A stretch of DNA of 64,000 bases from Brachyspira intermedia PWS/A (GTDB lineage: Bacteria; Spirochaetota; Brachyspiria; Brachyspirales; Brachyspiraceae): contig NC_017243.1 of the NCBI RefSeq assembly GCF_000223215.1, forward strand, positions 682,001-746,000. Direction: 5' to 3'. Positions 1,990-63,636 of the stretch are shown here, piece by piece. The position numbers and the translations under genes were made by a program. The number at the start of each line of letters is the position of its first letter. Position 1 is the first letter of the stretch. The notes beneath the pieces were generated by a model. That model did not search any database. It was not told the DNA's origin and worked only from the letters and a program-made list of their open reading frames with translations.

Positions 1990-3045
1990 TTGAAGATATT
2001 TAATTTTTTTTATATATTACTATTTGTTTTTTATTCAAATATTTTATTTTCTCAGCAGCCCCAAGTGTCGCTTGTACATTTTTATATGTGTAATGGAAAT
2101 ATCGGCGATTCGAAAATAACTATGTATTTTAATATAATGGATGGAACAAATGTATTTGGAAGATATCATTATAACAATATAAATCAATTCATAGATATAA
2201 GAGGGCATATTAACGGGAATAAATTATATATTGAAGAAAAAGTTAATAACCGTATAACAGGATATTTTAATGGAATAGTTTCTAATGATTTATTTTTTTC
2301 AGGAGAATGGGTATCCAAAGATGGAGAAAATAAATATGATTTTTCATTTTATAGAGATGAATCTTATCCTGTACATACTATGGATATAGTAAATTCATGG
2401 TTAAAGCTTGAGTTGGATAATGGAAAAAAATTTGAATCAACTAAAGATGCTGTCATAATAAGAAATGAAAAAAATCTTAATAATTTAGATAGAATTTCTT
2501 TAGATGTTGATGGAATAAAATCATTAAATACAAATAGAATTGCATATATATTAAATAATGCCATTATTGATGAATATAATGTTTGGACAAAGTCATCGCA
2601 AAATAATGAGGATTTTCATCTTATTAAAGAAATAAATGTTGCTTATTTAGATGAGAATATAATATCATTTACAATATATAATTATTCTTATACAGGCGGA
2701 ACGCATGGTATATATAATGTTGTGCCTGCTATATATTTAATTTCAACAGGTGAAAGGATAGGGTTGAGTTTATCAGAGCTAATAGAAAATAAAAATGATA
2801 GAGAATTAATTAATTTGATGAGAAGTAAATTACTTAGGAATTTTACAGAAAAAGATTTTTTTGATTTTTATTCTATTGAGCTTAGTGAAATTTATGATGT
2901 AACTCCAGCAGGTATATCATTTTATTGGCCTTTATATAAAATTGCTGATTATGCTCATGGTGTTATAGAAATTGAATTTACATATTTAGAGCTTAAGCCT
3001 TTTATTAAAAAGGATTCTAAATTTTGGTATTTGTTTAATAAATAA
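1990..3045 (+). CDS. Secreted DUF3298-like protein
   Basis: A 351-residue exported protein. Translation starts at TTG 1990, since the nearby ATG at 1985 is closed at once by a stop; an AAAAGAG site sits about nine bases upstream. Residues 1-21 form a hydrophobic signal peptide ending FSQQ. The middle is beta-rich. The C-terminal third (YSYTGGTHGIYN, then a Leu-rich helix ending in LRNF) resembles the DUF3298/RsiV-type domain found in periplasmic proteins such as PdaC. No catalytic residues are evident. It is followed closely by nth but is likely functionally unrelated. Confidence 0.65.
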   Translation: MKIFNFFYILLFVFYSNILFSQQPQVSLVHFYMCNGNIGDSKITMYFNIMDGTNVFGRYHYNNINQFIDIRGHINGNKLYIEEKVNNRITGYFNGIVSNDLFFSGEWVSKDGENKYDFSFYRDESYPVHTMDIVNSWLKLELDNGKKFESTKDAVIIRNEKNLNNLDRISLDVDGIKSLNTNRIAYILNNAIIDEYNVWTKSSQNNEDFHLIKEINVAYLDENIISFTIYNYSYTGGTHGIYNVVPAIYLISTGERIGLSLSELIENKNDRELINLMRSKLLRNFTEKDFFDFYSIELSEIYDVTPAGISFYWPLYKIADYAHGVIEIEFTYLELKPFIKKDSKFWYLFNK

Positions 3046-40971: not shown

Positions 40972-41061
40972 TAGGCTATATATTACAATATTTTTATAAA
41001 AAATCTATTTATTTAAAGCAGTAATTTATTTTTACTTAATGATAGTTTTTTATTTTTATGC

Positions 41062-41090
41062 TTGACAAAATTAATATAATGTAGTATTAT
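41062..41090 (+). promoter_or_regulatory. Promoter of the rplU-prp-rpmA operon
   Basis: TTGACA (41062-41067), 17-bp spacer, TATTAT (41085-41090), with TATAAT overlapping at 41088. Leader about 50 nt. Confidence 0.75.
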
Positions 41091-41147
41091 AATGTACTCA
41101 TAGTATTGTATAAAATAAAAATATATATAAATTGGAGATAAGCAATA

Positions 41148-41459
41148 ATGTATGCAATCGTAGAAGTAAAAGGTAAGCAATACAAGGTGGAAAAAGGTCA
41201 GGATATTTTAGTAGAATATCTAGGCGATGATGCTAAAGAAGCACCTGAAATTAAAACTCTTCTTCTTAAAAAAGATGATGAAAGTGTTTTAGTAGGTACA
41301 CCTTATGTTGATGGCGTTAAAGTAAGTTCTAAAATAGTAGAAATGATGAAAGGCGATAAAGTAGTTATCGGTAAACATAAAAGAAGAAAAGACTATAGAA
41401 GAAAAACAGGACATAGACATAAATACCATAAAATAACTATTGAAGATATAGCTGTTTAA
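41148..41459 (+). CDS. rplU: 50S ribosomal protein L21
   Basis: A 103-residue L21. It begins MYAIVEVKGKQYKVEKGQDI and ends with the KHKRRKDYRRKTGHRHKYHK region that contacts 23S rRNA. A TTGGAG site precedes the ATG. Its stop overlaps the start of the next gene by one base. Confidence 0.97.
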   Translation: MYAIVEVKGKQYKVEKGQDILVEYLGDDAKEAPEIKTLLLKKDDESVLVGTPYVDGVKVSSKIVEMMKGDKVVIGKHKRRKDYRRKTGHRHKYHKITIEDIAV

Positions 41460-41815
41460 TGTCTTCATTTGTTAATGTAGTATACAATATAGAATCGATT
41501 ATACAAAGCATAACAGTTGAAGGACATGCAGGAATTAAAAAATCCGGTGAAGGTTATGAAGTTTGTATAGCTTTGAGTGCATTGACACAGGCTATGTATA
41601 AGGCTTTGTTATCTATAGTAGGAAATAGATTTCTAAAGTATAAAATAAATGATGGATTTTTGAGTTTAGAGCTTGTTAATTGTGATAAACTTGAGAATTA
41701 TAAAAAAGTAGAGTACAAAATAGTTAGTAATGGATATTTGATAGGTATAAAATCTTTAATTAAAGAGTATCCTGATTTTATAAAATATAAAGAGGAGTAT
41801 AAAAATGGCACATAA
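41459..41815 (+). CDS. prp: Prp-like ribosomal-processing cysteine protease
   Basis: A 118-residue member of the Prp (YsxB) family between rplU and rpmA, the usual position. The catalytic pair is visible: His in [15 protein letters not shown] and Cys in [15 protein letters not shown]. In Firmicutes Prp removes an N-terminal extension from L27. The L27 here has no such extension (see rpmA), so its substrate may differ or the gene may be retained for another role. The end overlaps rpmA by 11 bases. Confidence 0.85.
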
Positions 41816-42059
41816 GAAAGGTGGCGGAAGTTCTAAAAACGGACGCGATAGTCAATCTAAACGTTTAGGTGTTAAAGTTTACGGCGGTCAGAAAGTTATA
41901 TCTGGCAATATTATAGTTAGACAACGCGGTACTCAATTCCATGCTGGAAGAAATGTTGATATAGGTCGCGATCATACTATATTTGCTACTGCTTCTGGTT
42001 ATGTGAAGTTCCATACTAATAAATTCGGAAAGAAAACTATCTCTGTTGTAACTGAATAA
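41805..42059 (+). CDS. rpmA: 50S ribosomal protein L27
   Basis: An 84-residue L27 starting [20 protein letters not shown], then [23 protein letters not shown]. The flexible N-terminus near the peptidyl transferase centre is intact. Going upstream in frame there is no start and a TAA is met 24 bases before the ATG, so the protein cannot carry the cleavable extension known in Firmicutes. An AGGAG site lies inside prp. Confidence 0.97.
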
Positions 42060-42082
42060 TAAATTGAACTTTTGAAAATATT

Positions 42083-42130
42083 ATATCTCAGCTGATAATG
42101 AATAATTGGCTGAGATATTTTCGTTTTTTA
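42083..42130 (+). terminator. Terminator of the rplU operon
   Basis: ATATCTCAGC (42083-42092) and GCTGAGATAT (42109-42118), then TTTTCGTTTTTTATTTT. Confidence 0.88.
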
Positions 42131-42232
42131 TTTTCTATTTAATAAATACTTCTGCGATATTCTAATTTATAAAAATAAAATCTATATAAAAATCTTAAAT
42201 AAAAATTTATATAATAAACATTTTTTATAATA

Positions 42233-42943
42233 TCACTTTTTTATATATTTTTTGGCATTCTCTAAAATTTCAGCTATATCATCATAACCTTTTGATTTTG
42301 CTATATCTAAAGCAGTTATATTTCTAGCATCTTTAAAGTTAATGTCAGCACCCTTAGAAATTAAAAGCTTTACAATTTCTGCATTATTTTTCTGTACTGC
42401 ATACATTAAAGGCGTTTGATATTGATAATCCATTGAATTTACATCAGCACCATTTTTTAATAAGAATTCTACAGATTCCAAATTATTAAAAATTAAAGCA
42501 TGCATTAAGGCATTAATCCCATAAGCATCTTTAGTATTAATATCAACATAATCCATTAGTTCCTTTATTTTTTCAATATTTCCTTTTTCAGCAGCTTTAA
42601 AAAATCTATCTTTGGCCAATGCTCTGTCTAAAGAGTTAGGCACTTCTTTATCTTTTTTTATAATTTTTACATTATTTGCATATTTAATATAATTAGCAAA
42701 TGTAAATATAAAACTAAATGATAATATAGATATAAATACTATAATAAATACTTTGTAATTCTTTTTAAAAATCAGCATAATAGAGTTTATTATTATAAGT
42801 AAGGCAATTATATTCGTTATATAAAATAAATTTTTTCTATTATAAAATATCATCATTAAAAAAGAAGATGCTATAATATTAACAGATATAACAATTAAAA
42901 TAATAGCGAATATATTTATTATAGTTTTTAATCTCTTACTCAT
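42233..42943 (-). CDS. Membrane protein with C-terminal ankyrin repeats
   Basis: A 236-residue protein. Three membrane helices occupy about 9-31, 41-58 and 66-86. Residues about 115-230 carry three or four ankyrin repeats (DAYGINALMHALIFNNLESVEFLLKNGADVN; YQTPLMYAVQKNNAEIVKLLISKGADIN; NITALDIAKSKGYDDIAEIL). It is 24 bp downstream of the first paralogue at 42968-44047, so cotranscribed. The paralogue at 50305-52179 carries its own ankyrin domain. Together this suggests an ankyrin protein works with this family. Confidence 0.8.
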   Translation of the reverse strand: MSKRLKTIINIFAIILIVISVNIIASSFLMMIFYNRKNLFYITNIIALLIIINSIMLIFKKNYKVFIIVFISILSFSFIFTFANYIKYANNVKIIKKDKEVPNSLDRALAKDRFFKAAEKGNIEKIKELMDYVDINTKDAYGINALMHALIFNNLESVEFLLKNGADVNSMDYQYQTPLMYAVQKNNAEIVKLLISKGADINFKDARNITALDIAKSKGYDDIAEILENAKKYIKK

Positions 42944-42967
42944 AATTGATTTATTATAAACTAAAAA

Positions 42968-44047
42968 TCAATTAAATAAATAAGCCAGATAATGATCATT
43001 ATTTACATACTCTTTTATATTCTTATTATCAATAAATATCTTTTCGTATCCTTTTTCCTTCATTATTATAATAAATGAATCTGTTACTCCAAAAATTAAA
43101 TTATCTATATTTGAATAAAAATCACTAGGAGCATTACATTCTTTTAGTAATTTTTCAGCATCATTTACTAAATCTTTTAAATATGAGGTAACTAATTTTT
43201 GACTATTCAAATCATAAATAAGAAAAACATTATTTATTGTAATTTCTTTACTATCTTCTATTTTTATGAGTTTTTTGTATATACAAATAGTTTTTTCATC
43301 AAAGTATAATATATTAAAAGCATATAAATCTTTAATTTTAATAAAATATTTTCTTAATTCATAAACAGGAAATTTTTTCAAAAATGAATTAATTTCATCT
43401 GAAAGTTCATTTTCTTTTTTATACTGAAAATCTTTTGAAAAACTAGATTCGCCATTAATATCAAAATTTATTTTTTCTTTATTGTCTATAAATGCATAAT
43501 AAAAATTGAATAAATAACTAAGAATTACGCTTAATTCTCCATATTTTTTTAAATATCCAAATTTGTATATATTAAATTTTTTTATATTTATTTTAGGCTC
43601 ATTTATTAATTCAAAAACTCCTTCTATTTTTTTGGAATTAATCTCCATAGCATATTCAGCTTTTGAAATACTAGAATTATTTAAATTTATCTCTGCAATA
43701 TTTTTTATCTTAGATCTTATAAATTCATCTTCAGTATAATAATCAAAAACTTCTATTTTACTGCTGTTTCCTCTAATTTCATAAATACCAAATAAATCTG
43801 AATTATTTATAAAAATTTTTCCTCTATACAAATAATGTATACCCTCATCAATATTTTCAAATTTATTGCAGTAAATGTATATATTATTAATCTTATCTTT
43901 AAGTATTATAAAAGTTGTATCCTTTATTTCAAAATAAGGACGGTATTTATTTTTCATTAATAATTTAAAAATAATAACTACAATAATAATAGAAATAATC
44001 AAAACAAAATATTCGTTATAGAAAATACTATATAATAATTCTTTCAT
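42968..44047 (-). CDS. Membrane-anchored family protein (paralogue 1)
   Basis: A 359-residue protein of the unrecognised family found five times in 42968-52179. One N-terminal membrane helix (about 12-32) is followed by a positive KLLMKNKYR, so the rest should be cytoplasmic. Conserved blocks: FIILKDKINNIYIYCN at about 45; KKIEGVFELINEPKINIKKF; IDNKEKINFDINGESSFS; FNILYFDEKTICIYKKL; then SQKLVTSYLKDLVNDAEKLL and DFYSNIDNLIFGVTDSFIII at the C-terminus, ending HYLAYLFN. Its last 110 residues are nearly identical to paralogue 2. No catalytic motif was recognised. Confidence 0.7.
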   Translation of the reverse strand: MKELLYSIFYNEYFVLIISIIIVVIIFKLLMKNKYRPYFEIKDTTFIILKDKINNIYIYCNKFENIDEGIHYLYRGKIFINNSDLFGIYEIRGNSSKIEVFDYYTEDEFIRSKIKNIAEINLNNSSISKAEYAMEINSKKIEGVFELINEPKINIKKFNIYKFGYLKKYGELSVILSYLFNFYYAFIDNKEKINFDINGESSFSKDFQYKKENELSDEINSFLKKFPVYELRKYFIKIKDLYAFNILYFDEKTICIYKKLIKIEDSKEITINNVFLIYDLNSQKLVTSYLKDLVNDAEKLLKECNAPSDFYSNIDNLIFGVTDSFIIIMKEKGYEKIFIDNKNIKEYVNNDHYLAYLFN

Positions 44048-44137
44048 AGTTTTTATTTAACTCCAAAAATTATAATTTAATGGTCAATTAATACAAATAG
44101 TAAAAATTAAGAAACTAAAAATTTTTAAATACAAAAA

Positions 44138-45421
44138 TCAATTAAACAAATAAGCCAAATAATGCTCCTTATTTATATAGTCTTTTATATTATTATTATC
44201 AATAAATATTTTTCCGTATCCTTTTTCTTTCATTATTATAATAAATGAATCAGTTACACCAAAAATTAAATTATCTATATTAGAATAAAAATCACTAGTG
44301 GCATTATATTTCTTTAATAATGCTTCAGTATCATTGACTAAGTCTTTAAGATAAGGACTTATTAATTTTTGACTGCTTAACTCAAATGTCATAAACATAT
44401 TATTTACTTCAGCAATCTGCAAATCTTCTAGCTTTGAAACTCTTTTATATAAAGATATTGTTTTATCATCATAGTATAATATATTAAAACTTTTAAACTC
44501 TTTAAGTTCATTATAATAATCAGCATAATTATCAATATAATTTAATATACTTTCATCCATTAATGATTTCCAATGTCTGTTTTTAGACTCTTTTACATAA
44601 GATGCAACTATATCTTTATTTTCATTTATTTTATTTTTCAAAAACTCATCTGAAAACTCTCTAACTCCATTAATAGAAGAATTTATTTTTTCTTTTCCAT
44701 TTATAAAAAGATAATCAAAATTAAATACATTGAGAGAAAATATTCTCTCAGAACTGAATAAAATACTTTTATCATTATACAACCCCAATATATCTGTATT
44801 ATGTAGTCTTATTATTTCTGCTTCATCTTCTCTTATGATTTCAAAAGTTCCTTCTATTTTTACAGGCTCTCTTAAAGTTTTTTTCATATTATCACCAACA
44901 TAGTCAACAATACTGTCATAAGGTTTAAACTCAATAACATACTCAATTTTTGATTTTGATGTATCATCTAATTTTGTCTTGAATTTTATTTCAGCAAAAG
45001 TTTCAGGATCATATCCATAAGATTTATTACCATCTGATGAGTGTTTATTAATTAAAATTGGATTATCTTTATCATAATAATTATCAACTCCTATTCTTTC
45101 GGATGAAAAGTAAACATCATTTATAATAAACCCATTATCATTATTTATATATACCCTTCCTAAATATGGAAACACATTATCTTTAGGCAAGTATAAATCA
45201 TTATAATTATCATTTTTCTTGTGTTCATAAACATAAACATATATATTGTTAACTTTATCTTTAAGCATGAAAAAATTATTTTTATAAAATCTTACCGGGT
45301 TTTTCTTAGCCTTATTTTTAGGTATATTAATAATTATTATGACAGCGGCTACTAAAATCACTACTGCTAACAAAATTATTATATCTTTATCTATAAATGA
45401 TTTACCTATTAAATTTTTCAT
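44138..45421 (-). CDS. Membrane-anchored family protein (paralogue 2)
   Basis: A 427-residue paralogue. A membrane helix at about 14-34 is followed by the basic KNKAKKNPVRFYKNN. Conserved blocks appear in order: FFMLKDKVNNIYVYVY, KSKIEYVIEFK, KIEGTFEIIREDEAEI, INGKEKINSSINGVREFSDE, FNILYYDDKTISLYKR, and DLVNDTEALLKKYN, DFYSNIDNLIFGVTD. The leader GCAATAATAAGGAG matches those of paralogues 3 and 4, so the upstream DNA was duplicated too. An outward-facing promoter-like end of repeat E1 lies about 110 bp upstream of its start. Confidence 0.7.
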   Translation of the reverse strand: MKNLIGKSFIDKDIIILLAVVILVAAVIIIINIPKNKAKKNPVRFYKNNFFMLKDKVNNIYVYVYEHKKNDNYNDLYLPKDNVFPYLGRVYINNDNGFIINDVYFSSERIGVDNYYDKDNPILINKHSSDGNKSYGYDPETFAEIKFKTKLDDTSKSKIEYVIEFKPYDSIVDYVGDNMKKTLREPVKIEGTFEIIREDEAEIIRLHNTDILGLYNDKSILFSSERIFSLNVFNFDYLFINGKEKINSSINGVREFSDEFLKNKINENKDIVASYVKESKNRHWKSLMDESILNYIDNYADYYNELKEFKSFNILYYDDKTISLYKRVSKLEDLQIAEVNNMFMTFELSSQKLISPYLKDLVNDTEALLKKYNATSDFYSNIDNLIFGVTDSFIIIMKEKGYGKIFIDNNNIKDYINKEHYLAYLFN

Positions 45422-45727
45422 TGTTTTAACGTTCTCCTTATTATTGCTAATAAAAATTATAATACACTTAATAAAGTGTTCTTAAGATTCGTAAATCATA
45501 ATTTTTATATTTATTCTTATACAAATAAGTATATACTAAAAATTTTTAACTTTGTCAATTTTTATGTTGTTCTTTTTCCCGCCGCATACGCTCTGTGGGC
45601 TTCGCAGGGCTAGTCCCCACAAATAATAAAACAATTTTTGACCAAATATAGTTGTTTAGCTATATATTCAAATTTTATGCTTTACAGTATACCCTCCATA
45701 TTATATAAAAATTAATTATAAAAACAA
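45422..45727. other. Intergenic region holding element E1
   Basis: 306 bp. 45422-45529 is the A/T-rich leader of paralogue 2. E1 fills 45530-45666. 45667-45727 is A/T-rich spacer before the paralogue 3 stop. Confidence 0.6.
45530..45666. repeat. MITE-like element E1 (137 bp)
   Basis: Left end A: TATATA, 17 bp, TGTCAA, which on the minus strand is TTGACA-N17-TATATA facing paralogue 2. Right end B: TTGACC-N17-TATATA facing right. Inside are CCCGCCGCA near A and GGGCTAGTCCCC near B, shared with E3 and E4. Confidence 0.7.
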
Positions 45728-47146
45728 TTATTGCCTATCAAAAAAATTAAATAAAGAATGACTTCTATTTAAATAATTTTTTAAATCATTTGATGAAATA
45801 AATATTCTACTTGCAATTTTTTCATTTGTATTTTCTAAATCATAATCCTCATCGCTAAGAATTAGGTTTGTATATTCAGGCATTACTATAATTCCTGTAT
45901 CTGTTAAAAGAAATATTAAATCATCTATATTGTCATAAAAATAATCAGGAACTACATATTTAGATAATAATTCTTTACTATCAACAACTAAATCTCTTAA
46001 ATAAGAGTTTATACTTTTTTCTCCGCTCAATTCAAATATAAAAGAATGATTCTTTACTGCAGCTTCATCTCTTCTTTCGTCTGCTTCTACAGTTCTTTTA
46101 TATATACATATTAATTCATCATCATAGTATAATATATCAAAGCATCTAAAGTCTTTAAGTTTCTTATAATATATAATACCAATTTTATCAGCATAATAGG
46201 CTTTGTTTTGGTCATAATGATGGAATTTTTCTATAATAACTTCTTTATTATTAAATTCTTTTTCAAGTTCTCTTCCTTTTTCTTCTTTAAAATTTTCATC
46301 AAAATAATAAGCTTTGCTGATAGCTGAATTTATTTTTTCTTTGCCTCTAATAAAAGGATAATTGAAATTAAATAGATAATTAGTAAGCATTTTTCTTACT
46401 TCATCCATACCAAGGTAAGCTGAATATTTATCATTAGTAAAAGTAGTTTGTTCTACTGGGATATAAAACTCTCTTATTTCCATTTCAGGTTTTCTAATAA
46501 CTTCAAAAACTCCTTCTACTTTTCCTCCTTTTATATCCATAGTATATTCAATTTCTGATGTTCTTTCATAATCGAATTCGCTTTTGAATTTTATCTTTAA
46601 TAAAATTTCTCTAATTTCTTTTTTCGAACTCCATTTATTAAATTTAATTGATTCTTTCCATGACGTTTCATAAGGAAGATATGATTTAAATTGCTTTTCC
46701 TTTAGTCTTTCAAAATAATCCATATCATAATCACGGTAAACATTAATTTCATTATTATTTAATTCATTAGTTTCACGAATCATTAATTTATTTTCGCTGT
46801 TTATAAACATTTGCCCTGTAAAAGAAGCAAAATATTCATGTGCGAAATTATCAAATTTTACTTTAATTAAATACTTTATTTTACCGCGATGTTTTCTGTA
46901 CCATTCATCATAATCATTATCTTTATATTTATAGCAATTAATATATATATTATTTATTCTATCTTTCAGCATAAAAAAACTTTTTTCATATACCAATATT
47001 TTATTTTCAGCATACCATTTTTTTGCTCTCTTCTCAAGTATAAAAATTACAGCTAGCAAAATTGCAGGTACTCCAAAAATAATAGGCCAGAAATAGTCAC
47101 TAATAATAAAAATTCTTAATGGTTCCAATATACCAAATGATATCAT
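45728..47146 (-). CDS. Membrane-anchored family protein (paralogue 3)
   Basis: A 472-residue paralogue, close in length and sequence to paralogue 4. One membrane helix at about 20-42, then KRAKKWYAENK. It has an inserted segment in the N-terminal domain (HEYFASFTGQMFINSENKL; WSSKKEIREILLK). Conserved blocks include SFFMLKDRINNIYINCYKY, YPFIRGKEKINSAISKAYYF, FDILYYDDELICIYKR, LRDLVVDSKELLSKY and DNIDDLIFLLTDTGIIVMPE. An AATAGGAG leader matches that of paralogue 4. Confidence 0.7.
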   Translation of the reverse strand: MISFGILEPLRIFIISDYFWPIIFGVPAILLAVIFILEKRAKKWYAENKILVYEKSFFMLKDRINNIYINCYKYKDNDYDEWYRKHRGKIKYLIKVKFDNFAHEYFASFTGQMFINSENKLMIRETNELNNNEINVYRDYDMDYFERLKEKQFKSYLPYETSWKESIKFNKWSSKKEIREILLKIKFKSEFDYERTSEIEYTMDIKGGKVEGVFEVIRKPEMEIREFYIPVEQTTFTNDKYSAYLGMDEVRKMLTNYLFNFNYPFIRGKEKINSAISKAYYFDENFKEEKGRELEKEFNNKEVIIEKFHHYDQNKAYYADKIGIIYYKKLKDFRCFDILYYDDELICIYKRTVEADERRDEAAVKNHSFIFELSGEKSINSYLRDLVVDSKELLSKYVVPDYFYDNIDDLIFLLTDTGIIVMPEYTNLILSDEDYDLENTNEKIASRIFISSNDLKNYLNRSHSLFNFFDRQ

Positions 47147-47563
47147 AAATAGCTCCTATTGTTGTTAATAAAAATTATTGGCTAATAGTATCTAGCCGTC
47201 TTTTGGAATTTACTAGATGCTTAAAATTTTTATATTTAGCTTTCTAATATTTAAAAATTATAATTTATTATTGCTATGTTCGCCCACACGAAGTGTGCCT
47301 ACTTGGTTCGCCATGTATAAGCTAGTGAGTATACTTACTGCTATGTGTGACTGCGACAATGTGTTATACTACATTTAAGATATATTCTATACATATAGAG
47401 TTAAAGTACTTGCGTTTTCGCGAAGCGTGCCGACGAAGTCCACATGCGGTGTCGGCAGCAACTTTGGCGAAGCCCGCAGAGCGTGTGCGACAAAAAAGTT
47501 AATGATATATCTATAAAAATATAGAAATTTACAAAAATAATTGTTTCAGTATATAAAAATTAA
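47147..47563. other. Intergenic region between paralogues 3 and 4, repeats
   Basis: 417 bp. 47263-47325 holds a CGCCCACACGAAGTGTGCC hairpin module also seen at 49095 and 49270. 47413-47500 is a G/C-richer module (GCGAAGCGTGC, GGCGAAGCCCGC, GTGTGCGACAAAAAAGT) shared with 62629-62694. 47528-47555 is a worn promoter-like end (TTTACA-N16-TATATA). Confidence 0.6.
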
Positions 47564-48988
47564 TTATCTCCTACTAAAAAAATTAAATAAATAATGACTT
47601 TTATTTAGATAATTTTTTAAATGCTCTGTAGGTATAAATATTCTTTCTGCAATTTCTTCATATTCATCTGCAGAGTCATTAATATCTAGATCAGGATATT
47701 CAGGCATTACTATAATTCCTGTATCTGTTAAAAGAAATATTAATTTCCTCATATTATTATAAAAATTATCAGTAAGTTCATAATTAGATAATAACTCTTT
47801 ACTATCAACAACTAAATCTCTTAAATAAGAACTTATACTTCTTTCACTATCCAATTCAAATATAAGAGAATTATTCTTTACTATAGCTTCTTTATTTCCT
47901 GCATCTGCTTCTATAGTTCTTTTGTATACGCATATTACTTCATCATCATAGTATGATATATCAAGGCATCTAAAGTCTTTAAATTTCCTATAATATATAA
48001 GACCAATATCATCTAAAGGACAGAATATATCAAAAAGAGCATTTTTATGGTTCAATTTCTCTTCAAGTTCTTTTCCTTTTTCTTGTTTGAATCTTTCATC
48101 AAAATTATAAGCTCCGCTGATAGCCATATTTATTTTTTCTTTTCCTCTAATAAAAGGATAATTGAAATTAAATAAATAATTAGTAAGCATTTTCTTTGTT
48201 TCATCAACTCCCAAACCATCATATTTGTAAGACAGTTGATCAGGAAAACTCATCTGTTCAATTGGAATATAAAATTGTTTTACTTCTATTTCAGGCTTTC
48301 TAATAACTTCAAAAACTCCTTCTATTCTTTTATTTTCAATATCCATTGTATATTCAATTTTAGATGTTCTTTCATAATCTAATTCTTTTCTGAATGTTAT
48401 AGTTGTAAGTTTATCTCTTACATCTTCTTTTGAATACCAACCCTCAAATTTAGGTTTATCATTTGGATTAAATTCATAATATTGAAAAGGGGTTTCTATT
48501 TTGTATTGTCTGTAATATAAATCCTTAAAATATTTTTTGTCATAATCATGGTAAACTACCATTTCATCTATGTATAATTTACTAGCTTCACGAATAATTA
48601 ATTCATAGCCGTTATTTATAAATATTTGACTTGGGAAACGGTCAAAATATTCATTTGCAAAACCGTCAAATTGTCTTTTTCGTTCATCTTCTGCCCAATT
48701 GTTGCTTAATGTTAGTATATCCTCCATTTTAGAATGGTGATCGTTAAACCATTTGGCATAAGCATTATCTTTATATCTATAGCAATTAATATATATATTA
48801 TTTATTTTATCTTTAAGCATAAAGAAATCTTTTCCATCTACTATTATTTTATTTTGAGAATACCATTTCTTGGAACGCCTCTTTATATACATAAAAATAA
48901 TATAAAAAATAATAATAAAAACTAAACCTATAATAAACTTCGTATTTTCATTTTGATTCAATAGAAAATCAAATATATTATCTATCAT
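47564..48988 (-). CDS. Membrane-anchored family protein (paralogue 4)
   Basis: A 474-residue paralogue very similar to paralogue 3 along its full length. The membrane helix at about 17-35 is followed by KRRSKKWYSQNK. Conserved blocks: FFMLKDKINNIYINCYRY, SKIEYTMDIENKRIEGVFEV, YPFIRGKEKINMAISGAYNF, LDISYYDDEVICVYKR and NMRKLIFLLTDTGIIVMPE. AATAGGAG lies before the ATG. Its upstream DNA begins with the 176-bp tandem repeat, suggesting local duplication. Confidence 0.7.
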   Translation of the reverse strand: MIDNIFDFLLNQNENTKFIIGLVFIIIFYIIFMYIKRRSKKWYSQNKIIVDGKDFFMLKDKINNIYINCYRYKDNAYAKWFNDHHSKMEDILTLSNNWAEDERKRQFDGFANEYFDRFPSQIFINNGYELIIREASKLYIDEMVVYHDYDKKYFKDLYYRQYKIETPFQYYEFNPNDKPKFEGWYSKEDVRDKLTTITFRKELDYERTSKIEYTMDIENKRIEGVFEVIRKPEIEVKQFYIPIEQMSFPDQLSYKYDGLGVDETKKMLTNYLFNFNYPFIRGKEKINMAISGAYNFDERFKQEKGKELEEKLNHKNALFDIFCPLDDIGLIYYRKFKDFRCLDISYYDDEVICVYKRTIEADAGNKEAIVKNNSLIFELDSERSISSYLRDLVVDSKELLSNYELTDNFYNNMRKLIFLLTDTGIIVMPEYPDLDINDSADEYEEIAERIFIPTEHLKNYLNKSHYLFNFFSRR

Positions 48989-49002
48989 AATAAACTCCTA
49001 TT

Positions 49003-49354
49003 GTTGCTAGCAATAAACTCGCTCAATATTAGCTGGCAACTAAAGTTGCCAGCTGCTCGTTTATCGCTTTAAAAATTATTTTTTCTTGTTATGTTCGCCC
49101 ACATGAAGTGTGCCTACTCAGTTCGCCTAAAGGTTTGACTTAATAAATTAAGTCAAAGGCTTCAGCTCACTTGTTTTAGTTGCTAGCAATAAACTCGCTC
49201 AATATTAGCTGGCAACTAAAGTTAAGAGCTGCTTGTTTATTGCTTTAAAAATTATTTTTTGTTGTTATGTTCGCCCACATGAAGTGTGCCTACTCGGTTC
49301 GACATATAATAACCTACTTGGTGGCTTCGGCTCACTTATTTTTGTTATACTAGC
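49003..49354. repeat. Tandem duplication, 176-bp unit
   Basis: GTTGCTAGCAATAAACTCGC starts at 49003 and again at 49179. Both units continue with the R repeat, TTCGCCCACATGAAGTGTGC, then divergent tails. Unit 1 contains an 11-bp perfect stem, TTTGACTTAAT/ATTAAGTCAAA (49134-49157). Confidence 0.8.
49006..49077 (+). repeat. R repeat, best copy
   Basis: A 72-bp imperfect palindrome. GCAATAAACTCGC and GCTCGTTTATCGC flank a perfect 11-bp stem AGCTGGCAACT (49031-49041) and AGTTGCCAGCT (49044-49054). A T-rich end follows. Other copies: 49182-49253, 28362-28432 (reverse) and 22087-22128. Confidence 0.75.
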
Positions 49355-49395
49355 TTTTTAAGATTAAATATAAATCCATTATTAAAAAACTAATA

Positions 49396-49466
49396 AAGTG
49401 AATAAAATTTTAAAATACGATTTTTTTACAAGCTCTTATCGTATCTAATTATAATTTTATTCACTT
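49396..49466 (-). terminator. Structured terminator of the lipoprotein gene
   Basis: A 14-bp stem AAGTGAATAAAATT with AATTTTATTCACTT encloses a second stem ATACGAT/ATCGTAT. It lies just past the stop of the gene at 49473, reading the minus strand. The double stem is unlike the other simple terminators of the window. Confidence 0.6.
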
Positions 49467-49472
49467 AAGATA

Positions 49473-49919
49473 TTATTTTCCTAATTTACTAAGACTAATT
49501 GAGTTAACTTGCTGTGTTCCATTATAAACAGACATTTCAAGTCCTTCACTAGTAAATTTAAATTCTAAGTGAGCATCATTTTTAGATATAGTTTTATAAT
49601 GATTATTAGCTACTTTTGATAATTTACTATTTCCTATATCACCTTTTATAGCTCTATCGCTTTCCATTACAATATCCACGCACTTTTTCACAACTTCTAT
49701 TGTAGATTCATCATTAGGATAGTTAATTTCTATACCATCATAACCTACAATTATAAGAAACGATTTCATATATGTTTCATCAGCTGACATAAAATATTGA
49801 CCGTATAGGTCTTCAGGGATATTTGTGTTTTTTTCTGTTTTTTTAGAACATGCAGTATTAACAAATAAAAAAGTTGAAATTAATAAAAAGAATGAAAATT
49901 TTAAAATTCTACCTTTCAT
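49473..49919 (-). CDS. Lipoprotein of unknown function
   Basis: A 148-residue lipoprotein. The signal FSFFLLISTFLFVNTACSKK ends in lipobox NTAC with Cys at about 24. The mature part has acidic and beta-prone residues (LYGQYFMSADETYMKSFLII; HLEFKFTSEGLEMSVYNGTQQ). No family is recognised. It has its own consensus promoter and stands between paralogues 4 and 5, so it is probably a separate unit inside the cluster. Confidence 0.75.
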   Translation of the reverse strand: MKGRILKFSFFLLISTFLFVNTACSKKTEKNTNIPEDLYGQYFMSADETYMKSFLIIVGYDGIEINYPNDESTIEVVKKCVDIVMESDRAIKGDIGNSKLSKVANNHYKTISKNDAHLEFKFTSEGLEMSVYNGTQQVNSISLSKLGK

Positions 49920-49944
49920 ATCATATAACCTCCTATAGTAGGGT

Positions 49945-49973
49945 ATTATAAAAAAGATTTTTAATTATGTCAA
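49945..49973 (-). promoter_or_regulatory. Promoter of the lipoprotein gene
   Basis: On the minus strand, TTGACA (49968-49973), 17 bp, TATAAT (49945-49950), followed by AGGAGG about 20 bases later. All consensus. Confidence 0.85.
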
Positions 49974-50053
49974 TGAAAATTTATTTTTATATTAAAATAT
50001 TTTTTATTTATCTTCATTAAAAAATATATGTATTAAATCATACTAAAAAATAA

Positions 50054-50298
50054 TATATACCCAAACAACTATACTTTGTCAATTTTCACCTTTTTATAAA
50101 TGTAAATTATAACTTTTTATAAAATAAAAGATTATCTAATATTAAGAAATATGTTTTACATATAATATAGATTTATTGATTTTGTATAATAATAAGTAAT
50201 CAGCCGCACGTATAAAGGACATTCATTAAGAATAAGCGATACCGTGCGGGTTGCCACTACGGCTAGTAGTTGACAAACTTAAAAATTTTCAGTATATA
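50054..50298. repeat. MITE-like element E2 (245 bp)
   Basis: Left end B (reversed): TATATA, 17 bp, TGTCAA. Right end A: TTGACA-N17-TATATA, whose -10 lies seven bases from the paralogue 5 stop, facing into it. The interior AATCAGCCGCAC, GATACCGTGCGG, TAGTTGACA module is shared in reverse with 63122-63215 of E4. Confidence 0.7.
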
Positions 50299-50304
50299 TA
50301 AAAA

Positions 50305-52179
50305 TTAATCAAATAAATAAGACAAATAATGATCTTTATTAATATTATATTTTATATCATCTAAAGGGATAAATATTTTTTTATGCCCCTTATCTTTCAT
50401 TAATATGATACCGGCTTCTGTTATAAGAAAAATTAAATTGTCTGTATCATTATAAAAGTTTTTAGGAACATTATATCTTTTTAATATCTCATCAGCATTA
50501 TTAACAAAATCTTTCAAATAAGGACTTATTAATTTTTCATTATCTAAATCAATTATGAGCGATATATTATTTATTATAAGATTATTATTAGATTCTATCT
50601 TAGCAAATCTCTTATATACGCATATTGTTTTATCATCAAAATACACTATATTATCAGCATTATAAAAATCTTTAAGTTTATCATAGTATTTAGTTTTAAT
50701 ATCATTAAATAAAACCTTATCATGTTTTTTTAAAATCTTTTCTACATCTATTTTCAATTCATTTTGTTTCTGAGAATGTAGTTTATTATCTCCATTTATA
50801 TATGAATTAATTTTATCATTGTTTTTTATATTGAAATGATAGAGATCAAATAAATAGCGAAGAATATTTATCAAATGATTAGATTTTGCCATCTTTTTAA
50901 ATATTAATTTAAAATATTCTACCTTAATATCAGGATTGCTATTAACTTCAAAAACTCCATTTATAATTTTAGAATCAGATATTTCCACAATATAGTTAAT
51001 TTCCTTTTTATCACTATTTATAAAATCATAGAGAGAACAATCAAATTTTATAATGGCTTTTTCATTTCTTTCTATAATAATATCATACCAGCTAAAATAT
51101 TCTTTGTCATTTTGTTTATTATCATCAAAACAATAAATAGAAATATAATTATCCATAAAATTACTGAGTATATTATAATACCCTTTTATCTTATCATTAT
51201 TTATAAATATATTTCCAAAAAAACCCTGCATTGCAGATACTAGTCCGCCATAATAAACATAAGAGTAAATATACATATTATTTACTTTATCTTTAAAAGT
51301 TATAAACGTTATTGTCTTTTGATAAATATCAGGAATATATCTTCTTTTATATGCTTTAATAAAAATAATAATAATAGCTATAAGAATAGCTGTAAGAATT
51401 AAATATTTACCAAATACCAATTTAAAATAATATAAAAAATTATCAGTTTTAGCTCCATTTAAAACCAATATAGCAGCTATATCTTCGTTGCCTTTATCAA
51501 GTGCTATTTCAAGACCTTTGTCTAAATCCATTTTGAATTTATTTCCAAAGAATAAAAATTTCTTTTTTAATAGACTTTTTAAGATAAACTCATTTTCTTT
51601 ATTAACAGCTAATAAAAACTCATCATTTATATCATCATCGTTTTTATAATGTTTCAAGATAATTTCAACAACATCATAAGCATAATCGTCTACAGCACTG
51701 TAAAGGGCTGTTTTACCATTAATAGATTTTTGATAAACATCAGCATTATTTTCTAGTAAGAACTCTACTATATCAAGTTTGCCATTATATTTTGAATAAG
51801 TATAAAGCAAAGTATAGCCATCATATACTCCGTTTATGTCATATTTCTGTATAAACTTCTTAACAGCTTCTAAATCCCCATAACCTTCTGCAGCATTTTG
51901 ATATTCATATTCTAAACTATCTATTTCTATAACATTATATTTTTTATAAAATTCTATTTTTTCTTTTAATACTTTTTCTGCTGCCTCTTTAAACAAGTTT
52001 TCTATATATTCTTTAGGGTCTTTTGCCATTTCTTTTAATTCATCTTCATTTGTAAACATTTTATCAAAAAGATTTTTATAGTAATTGGTGTCATATTCCT
52101 GAGAATATAGAAATAAAGATGTTATTATTAAGAAAATAAAAGATATAATTATTCTGAAAATATTTTTATTTTTTAACAT
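50305..52179 (-). CDS. Ankyrin-repeat fusion of the membrane family (paralogue 5)
   Basis: A 624-residue protein. Residues 1-27 are a signal peptide (ISFIFLIITSLFLYSQEYD). Residues about 85-245 form ankyrin repeats (AVKKFIQKYDINGVYDGYTLLYTYSKYNGKLDIVEFLLENNADVY; SINGKTALYSAVDDYAYDVVEIIL), so they should be periplasmic. A membrane helix at about 253-272 is followed by KAYKRR. The family domain (about 275-624) is then cytoplasmic: ITFKDKVNNMYIYSYVY, NNDKINSYINGDNKL, VYFDDKTICVYKR, SPYLKDFVNNADEILKRY, DTDNLIFLITEAGIILM. It joins the ankyrin and family parts in one chain. Confidence 0.75.
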   Translation of the reverse strand: MLKNKNIFRIIISFIFLIITSLFLYSQEYDTNYYKNLFDKMFTNEDELKEMAKDPKEYIENLFKEAAEKVLKEKIEFYKKYNVIEIDSLEYEYQNAAEGYGDLEAVKKFIQKYDINGVYDGYTLLYTYSKYNGKLDIVEFLLENNADVYQKSINGKTALYSAVDDYAYDVVEIILKHYKNDDDINDEFLLAVNKENEFILKSLLKKKFLFFGNKFKMDLDKGLEIALDKGNEDIAAILVLNGAKTDNFLYYFKLVFGKYLILTAILIAIIIIFIKAYKRRYIPDIYQKTITFITFKDKVNNMYIYSYVYYGGLVSAMQGFFGNIFINNDKIKGYYNILSNFMDNYISIYCFDDNKQNDKEYFSWYDIIIERNEKAIIKFDCSLYDFINSDKKEINYIVEISDSKIINGVFEVNSNPDIKVEYFKLIFKKMAKSNHLINILRYLFDLYHFNIKNNDKINSYINGDNKLHSQKQNELKIDVEKILKKHDKVLFNDIKTKYYDKLKDFYNADNIVYFDDKTICVYKRFAKIESNNNLIINNISLIIDLDNEKLISPYLKDFVNNADEILKRYNVPKNFYNDTDNLIFLITEAGIILMKDKGHKKIFIPLDDIKYNINKDHYLSYLFD

Positions 52180-52212
52180 ATTTTACCCTCATAAATATTA
52201 GAAAGGTTTTAT

Positions 52213-52239
52213 ATTATACTATAGAAATGTATATGTCAA
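52213..52239 (-). promoter_or_regulatory. Candidate promoter of paralogue 5
   Basis: On the minus strand TTGACA (52234-52239) and TATAAT (52213-52218) are 15 bp apart, short of optimum. A ribosome site GAGGG follows. Confidence 0.5.
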
Positions 52240-52259
52240 TATAATAGAGTAAATTACAT

Positions 52260-52814
52260 TTAAGGCATGAAACTTACATTTACATTTTTTATTATGTCTA
52301 TTTTTTGAGCTTCAGGTTTTGAGTATTTAGCTGATGCTTTTTGAGAATTAGCCTGATTTCCTATATTTATAACAGAAGTATAAAGTACATTATTATCTTG
52401 ATATATAGTAGCTTCAACAACTATTCTGTAAGTACCGTCTTTTACTATGTTTCCTTGATTATCTTTGCAGTCCCAAACTATATTAACTTTGCCTTGTTTT
52501 GGAGTAGATTTTGATACGGCATCAATTATTTTTTTATCTATACTTTGAGCATTAGCTTTTTTCTGCCAATTATTTAAAGATTGCTTTCTATATGTCCAGC
52601 CTTCTCTTCTTCCTGTAAAATCTGTAATATATATTGTAGCTATATAGTTGCCGTTATTATCTTCAGCCCAAACAGCTATTTGATTGCTTGAATAACCCGG
52701 TCTTTTAGTATAATCGAAACTTATATTAACTTTTTTAGTACCATTTTGAGCATAGTTTTCATTTATGAATGATACAGCAAAAATCATAAATAATATAATA
52801 AAAATTTTTTTCAT
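52260..52814 (-). CDS. Periplasmic DUF2271-family protein
   Basis: A 184-residue exported protein with a signal peptide ending near residue 22 (NENYAQ). The middle reads YSSNQIAVWAEDNNGNYIATIYITDFTGRREGW, the DUF2271 hallmark, followed by VNIVWDCKDNQGNIVKDGTYRIVVEATI, a bacterial Ig-like or FlgD-type fold. DUF2271 proteins are often periplasmic partners of flavin-transfer or thiol proteins; none is near. It is 80 bp upstream of paralogue 5 in the same direction. Confidence 0.8.
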   Translation of the reverse strand: MKKIFIILFMIFAVSFINENYAQNGTKKVNISFDYTKRPGYSSNQIAVWAEDNNGNYIATIYITDFTGRREGWTYRKQSLNNWQKKANAQSIDKKIIDAVSKSTPKQGKVNIVWDCKDNQGNIVKDGTYRIVVEATIYQDNNVLYTSVINIGNQANSQKASAKYSKPEAQKIDIIKNVNVSFMP

Positions 52815-53222
52815 AAATAATCTCCTAATAATAAATTTTGTTTTTATTTTTTACCATATATTTATAATTTTATATAATAGACTTGTTTCAAAACTAATTT
52901 AATAAAGATTTGCAATAGTTTTACTTTATTTATTTTTATAATTGGGGCTTTGCCCCGCACCCCACTTCTTTTGTTGCCACAAAGAAGCAAAAAGGCTATA
53001 TTTTAGCTTAAATTAATAATCTATCTTACATACAAAACAATTTTAGTATTATTTCGTACTAATTTTACATTTGCACTTTTTGCAACTTTTTGCGGCGGGA
53101 AAAAGTTGACTAAAAAATGACAAACTTAAAATTTTCAGTATATATAGCATATTATTATATTTAAAAAGTTACAATAATTTTGTCAAGTAGTTTTGAAATA
53201 TGTCTAATATTTCATTTAATTA
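52815..53222. other. Intergenic region with a worn element
   Basis: 408 bp. 52944-53144 is homologous in reverse to 62741-63045 (E3), sharing GGGGCTTTGCCCC, CCACTTCTTTTG, CACAAAGAAGCAAAAAGGC and GCGGCGGGAAAAAGTTGA. It lacks two inserts found in E3. An end A (ATGACA-N16-TATATA) is at 53117-53144. The other end is unrecognisable. Confidence 0.6.
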
Positions 53223-53732
53223 TCAATACTTTTCATAATGTATTTTATTAGGCTCAAATCTGTCTGGCATAGCAGGCTCTCCGTCAGGATAACCAATAAC
53301 AACTATTCCTAAAGGCTTAATATGATCAGGTAAATTAAATATTTTTATTATTTCATTCATTCTCTCTTCACGAGGAGCAACACCAATCCAAACGCTTCCT
53401 AAATCTTTAGCTTTTGCTGCAAGCATTAAATTTTGTAAAGCTGCAGAACAGTTTTGCTGCCAGTAAAGCTGACCTGATTCATCGGATAAATCTCCGCATA
53501 CAACTATAGCTAATGTAGCAGTATCTAACATTTTAGCATAAGGGTGAGAGTTCATGATTTTATCTAATGTTTCTCTGTTTTTTACTACTATAAACTCCCA
53601 ATTTCTTCTATTATTTGCAGATGGAGCATACATAGCAGCTTTAAGCATATATTCTATCTTTTCATCTTCAACTTGTTTACCTTTAATATATTTTCTTATG
53701 CTTCTTCTTGTAAATAGAATATCTTCACTCAT
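53223..53732 (-). CDS. Nitroreductase-family protein
   Basis: A 169-residue flavoprotein. It begins MSEDILFTRRSIRKYIKGKQVEDEKIEYMLKAAMYAPSANNRR, the FMN-binding Arg-Ser-Ile-Arg segment of nitroreductases, and ends with GVAPREERMNEIIKIFNLPDHIKPLGIVVIGYPDGEP. It probably uses NAD(P)H to reduce nitro or quinone compounds; the length is of the small NfnB type. AAGGAG lies before the ATG. It stands alone. Confidence 0.92.
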   Translation of the reverse strand: MSEDILFTRRSIRKYIKGKQVEDEKIEYMLKAAMYAPSANNRRNWEFIVVKNRETLDKIMNSHPYAKMLDTATLAIVVCGDLSDESGQLYWQQNCSAALQNLMLAAKAKDLGSVWIGVAPREERMNEIIKIFNLPDHIKPLGIVVIGYPDGEPAMPDRFEPNKIHYEKY

Positions 53733-53986
53733 ATAATATTCTCTCCTTAAAGTTATTTTTTATTATTATATAGTAAATATAAGAAAATTAAAATTGTTAG
53801 AGTACTAAAATTTATATATTAATTATCAAAAATTAGAGTAGGGTAGTTACATACCAGCCATTTATGTTTTCTATCTTTATTAAATATTGAAACTTTTTTA
53901 TTTTTTTAGTTTATTCTTGAAAAAGAATGCCCACCCAAGTATTTTTCTATGTTTAAAGTTTTAAAAAGTATGATATTATTATATTA

Positions 53987-55044
53987 ATGAATTATATAGG
54001 AAGTAAACTGTCTTTATTAGATTTTTTATACGAATCTATAATGTCTGTAATAGATGATAATTGTCATACATTCTGTGATTTGTTTGCAGGTACAGGTATT
54101 GTAGGAAGATATTTTAAATCTAAAAATTTCTCGATTATAGCTAATGATATTCAGTATTATAGTTATGTTTTAAATAAGCATTATATAGAAAATAGTAAAT
54201 ATTTGTCATTTTACGATTTAAATGAAGAAATAGAAGAATTAAAAGAAACTGATATCAAAGAAAAATATATAATTGTATGCGAGTATTTGAATAATATAGA
54301 TTATCAAAAAGGTTTTATTTATAATAATTATTCTTTAGGAGGTACTAAAGATAAAGAACATAAGAGAATATACTTTTCAGATGAAAACGCCATGAAATGC
54401 GATGATATAAGAATGAAAATAGAAGAATGGCTTAATAATAAGAAGATTAATGAAAATGAATATTATTTTCTTCTTGCCAGCTTGCTTGAAAATATTGATA
54501 GATGTGCAAATACAGCTTCAGTTTATGGTGCATTTTTGAAAGATATAAAAAAACAGCTTCAAAAACTTTCAATTATTGTCCTTGCGAATTTGTTATAAGT
54601 GATATAGAGCATAAAGTATATAATGAAGATGCTAATAAATTAATAGAAGATATTGAAACCGATATATTATATTTAGACCCTCCATATAATAGAAGACAAT
54701 ATTCAGATAATTATCATATACTTGAAACTATAGCTAAATATGATAATCCTGTAATAAAAGGAAAAACAGGACTTAGAAATGATAGAATAAAATCATTATA
54801 TTGTAATAAAAATTATGTTTATAATGTATTTGAGGAGCTTATAAATAAAGCTAATGCTAAATATATATTTTTAAGTTATAATAATGAAGGTTTATTGTCA
54901 TTAGAAGATATAAAGAAAATAATGTCAAAAAAAGGAAAATACGGATTATTTGTCAAAGAATACAGCAGATTTAAAGCCGACAGCAAAAGATATAATTCCG
55001 CTTCAAAAACATGTGAGTATCTGCATTACCTCATAGTAAAATAA
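53987..55044 (+). pseudogene. D12-class adenine-specific DNA methyltransferase, interrupted by a frameshift at an A7 tract
   Basis: One methylase spread over two frames. The first part (53987-54598) opens MNYIGSKLSLLDFLYES and contains SAM motif I, CDLFAGTGIVGRYFK. The second (55044 end) contains catalytic motif IV, LYLDPPYNRRQYSDNYH, and a conserved C-terminus. The join lies at A7 (54547-54553). Adding one A, or a -1 slip there, gives one frame of 352 residues reading KDIKKTASKTFNYCPCEF. It may be a phase-variable gene, programmed frameshift (A-AAA-AAA-C resembles a slippery site), a dead gene or a sequencing error. No partner enzyme is adjacent. Confidence 0.82.
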
Positions 55045-62740: not shown

Positions 62741-63104
62741 TATATACTGAAAATTTTTAAGTTTGTCAATTTTTTTATTCAACTTTTTCCCGCCGCAAAA
62801 AGTTGCTTATATCCTCGACAAGCTCGGATACGCTTCGCGAAAGTGCAAGTATAAAATTAGTACTAAATAATACTAAAATTGTCTTACATGTAAAATAATT
62901 TATTACATTTAAGTTATAAATATAGCCTTTTTGCTTCTTTGTGGCAATACCATACCTACACTTACAGTGGACTTCGTCAGGTACTCCTTTCAGTCGCAGG
63001 CACTCCCTACGGTCGCAAAAGAAGTGGGGTCTGGGGCAAAGCCCCAGATATAAAAACAAAAATATAAATTTATTTTTGACAAAATATAATTGTTTAGGTA
63101 TATA
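62741..63104. repeat. MITE-like element E3 (364 bp)
   Basis: Left end A: TATATA-N17-TGTCAA. Right end B: TTGACA-N17-TATATA (63076-63104). Inside: CCCGCCGCA, CTCGGATACGCTTCGCG (62824-62840) and the GGGGCAAAGCCCC hairpin (63033-63045). Its middle matches 52944-53144 reversed. Confidence 0.7.
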
Positions 63105-63636
63105 CTGAAAATTTTTAAGTTTGTCAACTATTCGCCATAGAGGCTTTCCGCACGGTATTGCTTACTCTTATCAAAAGTCCTCTATATGTGCGGCTGATTA
63201 CTTATTACTATACAAAAATTAATACAGATAAAACATATTTAACCAACATTATATAATATTTTATTTATGAAAAATTATAATTTATATTTACAAAATAGAA
63301 AAATTTATAAAATGTAGTTCTTTAGATTTTTAATTTTATTGTTTGTGGTTGCTTTGCCCCAGCCCCCAGTTCTTTTACTGAGTAGGTACCTTTCGGTATT
63401 AGTATAAAAGAACCTTATATCCTCGATAAACTCGGATACGCTTCGCGAAAACGCAATTACTAGAACTTTATATTAAATATATACTTATTAAATATGGGAT
63501 ATAACCTAAATTTAGACTATAAATGCAGTTCTTTTGGTTCTTTTATACCAATAAAAGAACTGGGGGTGCGGGGGCTAGTCCCCGAAAATAATAACAATAT
63601 AAAAAATAAAATTGACAAAATATAATTGTTTATATA
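63099..63636. repeat. MITE-like element E4 (538 bp)
   Basis: Left end A uses the same TATATA (63099-63104) as E3's right end. The right end B (63612-63636) keeps TTGACA and TATATA but has a 13-bp spacer. A foldback pair lies at about 63354-63378 and 63549-63575 (GGGGGTGCGGGGGC side). Confidence 0.65.

Follow-up and report, generated by a model that had tools for sequence, protein, structure and literature searches.

A Brachyspira ankyrin protein with a predicted second module across the inner membrane, distantly related to the DUF4163/DUF3298 module of RsiV

Introduction

RsiV is an anti-sigma factor of Bacillus subtilis whose module binds lysozyme and whose cytoplasmic N-terminus binds sigma V, while AnkB of Pseudomonas aeruginosa is a periplasmic ankyrin protein linked to the catalase KatB. 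Few free-living bacteria are known to have as many ankyrin genes as Brachyspira, and to our knowledge almost nothing is known about the role of the exported ankyrin proteins of this genus. According to the paper on the RsiV crystal structure, the DUF4163/DUF3298 domain of RsiV is extracellular, its structural relatives include 3CYG, BF2082 (3S5T) and PA4972 (4E72), and all four are grouped as DUF4163 + DUF3298 proteins (PMC5014341). Bd3460 of Bdellovibrio has been described as an exported ankyrin protein that binds periplasmic enzymes and inhibits DD-endopeptidases (PMC4686830). For Brachyspira itself, one report gives 32-60 ankyrin proteins per genome (PMC3932732) and another places these proteins mainly in the exoproteome and surfaceome (PMC4955376).

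Here we describe an ankyrin protein of Brachyspira intermedia PWS/A, P5, that carries a further domain shared with four neighbouring paralogues, P1-P4, and that is predicted to present a module on each side of the inner membrane. The window, meaning the whole stretch of DNA analysed, comprises 64,000 nt of NC_017243.1 (positions 682,001-746,000, forward strand), and the genus sample consisted of 26 Brachyspira genomes. ANKm denotes a separate ankyrin membrane protein at the same locus; all coordinates within the window are collected in Table 1. The analysis gives a fold to a family that had no name and is specific to the genus; it also suggests that a sensor fold known from outside the cell has moved to the other side of the membrane.

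Table 1. Coordinates, strand and basis of the features discussed, in window positions.
Feature	Position	Strand	Remark
P5: signal segment, ankyrin, membrane helix, barrel, DUF3298-like domain, 624 aa	50305..52179	-	ATG start
P5 residues 1-26, predicted export signal, cleavage putative	52102..52179	-	hydrophobic 7-25
P5 residues 96-180, ankyrin repeats (Ank_2), predicted periplasmic	51640..51894	-	Pfam; model helices, low pLDDT there
P5 residues 254-276, membrane helix	51352..51420	-	hydropathy, model
P5 residues 282-426, beta barrel, predicted cytoplasmic	50902..51336	-	avidin/lipocalin-like in P1 model
P5 residues 427-624, DUF3298/RsiV-like domain, predicted cytoplasmic	50308..50901	-	fold and profile comparison
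P1: anchored family member without ankyrin, 359 aa	42968..44047	-	AlphaFold-modelled
P2: family member, 427 aa	44138..45421	-	
P3: family member, 472 aa	45728..47146	-	
P4: family member, 474 aa	47564..48988	-	
ANKm: three N-terminal hydrophobic helices and ankyrin, 236 aa, adjoins P1	42233..42943	-	
Lipoprotein-like gene, 148 aa, within array	49473..49919	-	
Exported DUF3298 protein, comparison family, outside array	1990..3045	+	

Results

Architecture of P5 and searches for relatives

An earlier note had read P5 as an N-terminal signal, ankyrin repeats, a membrane helix and the domain of the neighbouring family, and this order of parts is borne out by hydropathy, Pfam and the paralogue alignment, with export itself being predicted. 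The two hydrophobic segments have hydropathy values of 2.4 (N-terminal) and 2.7-3.0 (internal, approximate limits), and the N-terminal segment ends ..LYSQ, as in several exported ankyrin proteins of the B. intermedia genome. The repeats match Ank_2 with an E value of 7.2e-14 and a score of 52.6 bits, the cut-off being 27.3, and Ank, Ank_5, Ank_4 and Ank_3 likewise score above their Pfam cut-offs. The C-terminal part shares 31-44 % identity with P1-P4, and 54 columns are invariant across the five proteins, start methionine included. Among the 56 ankyrin ORFs of the genome, P5 alone shows a strong hydrophobic segment past its ankyrin matches, and it alone carries the family domain. A literature search for ankyrin linked to DUF3298, DUF4163 or RsiV in bacteria gave no report among the matches listed, which otherwise dealt with red sea bream iridovirus, owing to a shared abbreviation, or with RsiV alone. 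The architecture of P5 is a new combination of known parts, for which no report was found in the literature searched. The searches found no domain with a catalytic, DNA-binding or known output function, so signalling is conjectural.

Searches with the family domain in Pfam, NCBIfam, PADLOC and PDB sequences returned nothing useful; matches to Terminase_2 and LPD18 were short, weak and below cut-offs, and were set aside. Thirty family members gave no Pfam match to PF11738 (DUF3298) or DUF4163 at E values up to 10, and a viral structure library gave none at E <= 1e-3. In PADLOC, P1-P4 were without a match at E up to 1, and P5 matched through its ankyrin part only. Outside the genus, 7 of 366 genomes yielded matches, all over short stretches with E values of 0.001-0.009, which we took as chance, and a scan of genome contigs with peptides of one protein recovered 12 loci, all from Brachyspira.

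Several other features lie nearby. The intergenic stretch just downstream of P5 (50150-50300) is a dispersed repeat with 47 matching places in the genome, including several near-full-length copies at 76-96 % identity and many more matches, at 100 %, to about 30 bp at its end. Another copy within the window lies at about 63099-63249, and the repeat had no Rfam match at E up to 0.1; nor did Rfam place any element within window positions 41000-54000. A gene resembling DNA methyltransferases at 53987-55044 is divided between two ORFs that overlap in different frames; in the relatives L060 and L061 it is one ORF of 352-375 aa.

Fold and ancestry of the family domain

The AlphaFold model of P1, built from 30 sequences, reached a mean pLDDT of 85.3 and a pTM of 0.82, and that of P5 was poorer (pLDDT 64.2). 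Residues 44-150 of the P1 model form what may be an avidin-like barrel, with Z scores of 9-10, the highest being 10.1 (8T1M) and 9.7 (avidins) over about 94 residues at 5-14 % identity, for a barrel shape that is common. The best Foldseek matches were 3CYG (E 1.9e-3, prob 1.00) and RsiV itself (5JEN, E 3.1e-3, prob 0.97), which are moderate scores in that E did not fall below 1e-3 and the TM-scores were low (0.26/0.41). A second structure comparison returned 3S5T (Z 7.8, 179 residues aligned, rmsd 5.1), 4E72 (Z 7.5), 3CYG and 5JEN (both Z 7.1), a VIA Z of 7-8 being one that the tool itself labels as possibly common. Among the 50 listed chains, these four alone cover P1 residues from about 147 to 359. 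The modelled C-terminal part of the family thus agrees, at moderate scores, with the DUF4163/DUF3298 fold.

Because these structure scores were moderate, the family was also tested by sequence profile. DUF3298 proteins occur in all 26 genus genomes, and one is encoded at the beginning of the window (Table 1); its product has a barrel-like N-terminal region, and the genome holds three more DUF3298 matches. In hhalign, the family aligned with 20 exported Brachyspira DUF3298 proteins at a score of 56.5 (P 9e-7). As controls, 30 column shuffles scored no higher than 19.3, and two reversals gave 14.7 and 13.6. Against nine DUF3298 proteins from outside the genus the score was 31.0 (at most 16.8 in 30 shuffles), a match that is weak taken alone (E 0.0034, probability 9.6 %). 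This similarity concerns the C-terminal region: the family barrel, compared with the N-terminal region of the exported DUF3298 proteins, scored 18.8 against 19.1 in shuffles, so no sequence link was found there. A GGxHG motif is nearly invariant in the alignment of the exported Brachyspira proteins (A5; G236, G237, H239, G240) and is absent from the stretch of the family aligned with them. Given the absence of this motif and the failure of the Pfam model, we regard the family as a distant DUF3298 relative and not as a member; with profile scores above those of the controls, the sequences agree with such distant kinship to DUF4163/DUF3298.

Membrane topology

The ankyrin part of P5 is predicted to be periplasmic and the family domain cytoplasmic, as the earlier note had proposed, because of the export signal, the cysteine pattern and the flanks of the P1-P4 anchors. 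P5 starts like most ankyrin proteins of this genome, 44 of the 56 ankyrin ORFs having an N-terminal hydrophobic segment. Its ankyrin part is free of cysteine in 17/17 orthologues, and cysteine makes up 1.03 % of the C-terminal domain; similarly, cysteine amounts to 0.72 % in the P1-P4 domains versus 0.10 % in exported DUF3298 proteins. P1-P4 begin with about 12-25 residues followed by a strong helix and then a positive stretch, and lysine plus arginine is higher on the domain side than before the helix in 44 of 45 proteins, a count that excludes four P1-P4 proteins without a clear N-terminal helix. In P5 itself the helix was confirmed, but the positive inner flank that had been ascribed to it was modest: mean K+R is 3.4 after the helix and 2.7 before it, and the count is higher after the helix in 7 of 18 orthologues. 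This difference being weak, the topology of P5 rests on the export signal and the paralogues.

All 29 DUF3298 proteins considered (20 in alignment A5 and nine from outside the genus) appear to start with a signal peptide, a lipobox or a hydrophobic segment. Their apparent export argues for a family domain outside the cytoplasm, against the charge rule. With its predicted place inside the cell, the family domain appears turned inside-out relative to its exported DUF3298 relatives, and this is the least secure point of our reconstruction.

Conservation and array dynamics

The family domain was found by search in 22 of the 26 genus genomes, and P5 is complete, or shortened only where a contig ends, in 17 of the 26 (18 ORFs including that of the window, one genome having two). 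Two further genomes, G015 and G024, hold partial copies; that of G015 is not called broken, because it spans unknown bases. Beyond the P5 of the window, 17 P5 ORFs longer than 540 aa were recovered from 16 other genomes, two of them cut by contig ends, and all 17 keep the N-terminal segment and the internal helix. Since 17 genomes share this ORF, a fusion arising by chance or through misassembly is ruled out.

Codon models on 17 sequences gave omega values of 0.23 for the ankyrin part, 0.45 for the barrel and 0.23 for the DUF3298-like domain, with omega = 1 rejected for each (2dlnL 148, 19 and 141, respectively). All parts of P5 are under purifying selection, and the barrel is the fastest-evolving of them. 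The likelihood of the ankyrin part varied between runs (-2677.9 versus -2709.9, with a fast tree search), which left the conclusion unchanged. Pairwise NG86 ratios for the barrel ranged from 0.60 to 2.35 in nine pairs, several of them above 1, and hinted at diversifying selection; the tree-wide maximum-likelihood estimate, for which 1 is rejected, does not support it. Conservation and purifying selection together support, indirectly, the functional unity of the fusion.

Where P5 is linked to the array, it occupies the 5' end in 15/15 genomes, of which G024 is fragmentary; G022 and G023, where contig ends intervene, are not among the 15. In G009 and G015 it lies apart from the array, and in G017 no other family member is intact; hence P5 can work without P1-P4. 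Broken family copies are common in the arrays, and one paralogue (L071:4833-6095) is a mosaic whose N-terminal half is P3-like and whose C-terminal half is P2-like, which shows recombination between array members. The lipoprotein-like gene of Table 1 also recurs within the array at L063, L064, L065, L066, L069 and L071, with two copies in L065 and L066.

ANKm and its link to P1

The separate ankyrin membrane protein that had been noticed beside P1 was confirmed: ANKm matches Ank_2 (E 2.6e-23), has three hydrophobic helices at its N-terminus and lies 24 bp downstream of P1. Homologues occur in four other genomes, and in 5/5 the gene sits about 20-35 bp downstream of P1 while the outer flanks differ, and this is sound evidence that ANKm and P1 are linked. 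A sixth match, in G017, proved to be an unrelated ankyrin repeat protein. ANKm is absent from 12 of the 17 genomes with P5, and its ankyrin part is outside the best 20 of the 56 ankyrin ORFs matching that of P5. Counts of K+R on the inside are 8-9 if the C-terminus is inside and 5-6 if it is outside, so that charge slightly favours a cytoplasmic ankyrin part for ANKm, on the side opposite to that predicted for P5. ANKm need not be a split form of P5.

Discussion

Proposed mechanism and alternatives

We give about an even chance to the reading that P5 is a two-sided binding or tethering protein of the inner membrane, with a module on each side and with signalling possible. The exported ankyrin module would stand in the periplasm and clamp a protein partner, in the manner of AnkB and Bd3460 in other bacteria, and the cytoplasmic RsiV-fold module would hold a second partner at the inner face; P1-P4 would be versions of this inner module with a simple anchor. 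Most probably, P5 would then serve as a tether or receptor coupling an envelope protein to a cytoplasmic one, perhaps with the inner modules of P1-P5 associating with one another. Passage of a signal through P5 is a guess. More tentatively, and on the doubtful side, P5 may be considered an inside-out RsiV: a DUF3298-type module would have moved to the cytoplasmic face and multiplied in a shuffling array, one copy would have gained an outer ankyrin sensing head, and the former sensor module would have become the inner output.

The earlier note had gone further and joined ankyrin and family parts into one signalling device. As a receptor, P5 would bind a ligand at its periplasmic ankyrin repeats and so change the inner module, with ANKm and P1 as a split version. 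The part of this claim that stands is the association: the fusion is conserved and under selection, the would-be split parts are adjacent in every one of the five genomes with ANKm, and P5 heads the array in all 15 linked genomes, one of them fragmentary. The unity of the device fares less well, given that ANKm is missing from 12 of the 17 P5 genomes and leans towards the other topology, and that P5 is alone intact in G017 and unlinked in G009 and G015. With no output domain found either, we think a signalling receptor of this kind unlikely. A self-protection or immunity-like device, in which the ankyrin part restrains a periplasmic enzyme and the inner modules, in an array with rapid turnover, give protection from a variety of partners, would have a precedent in Bd3460 as an exported ankyrin inhibitor (PMC4686830), and the broken copies, the mosaic paralogue, the comparatively fast barrel (omega 0.45) and the pairwise ratios above 1 would fit it; yet a scan of 10 proteins around the array revealed neither a toxin nor a peptidoglycan enzyme, the family domain had no PADLOC match, and we consider such a device quite improbable. 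Much the same low probability attaches to a family domain that is truly periplasmic, the charge and signal readings being misleading, for instance through a P5 helix that is not a full span. The extracellular position of the RsiV domain (PMC5014341) and the export of the Brachyspira DUF3298 relatives speak for such a placement, but the positive domain-side flanks of 44 of the 45 P1-P4 proteins, their cysteine content (0.72 % against 0.10 % in exported DUF3298 proteins) and, in P5, the succession of an export signal and a strongly hydrophobic helix speak against it.

Comparison with known systems

The two-sided protein that we favour resembles RsiV in being a single-span protein with a module of the DUF4163/DUF3298 fold. 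It differs from RsiV in that the latter's module lies outside, while that of the family is predicted to be cytoplasmic, with a barrel in front and without a sigma-binding part, and in that P5 adds an outer ankyrin module. The RsiV layout, a sigma-binding N-terminus with the module outside, is not that of P1-P4, whose N-termini have about 12-25 residues and whose charge points to the inside; a Pfam scan of 10 proteins, from the array and its surroundings, found no ECF sigma factor. The exported Brachyspira DUF3298 proteins are of similar length to the family and share profile homology with it over the C-terminal ~150 residues, but they begin with a signal peptide or a lipobox and most of them have the GGxHG motif, whereas P1-P4 have no ordinary signal and the family lacks the motif.

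On the ankyrin side, AnkB is not known to have an inner module, unlike P5, and Bd3460 is soluble, with neither a membrane helix nor an inner module. The exported ankyrin proteins of Brachyspira have the same export signals as P5, which alone among the 56 continues past its repeats into a helix and the family domain. Since P5 would thus join an exported ankyrin to an inner module, its inner partner would offer a handle on the role of exported ankyrin proteins in this genus.
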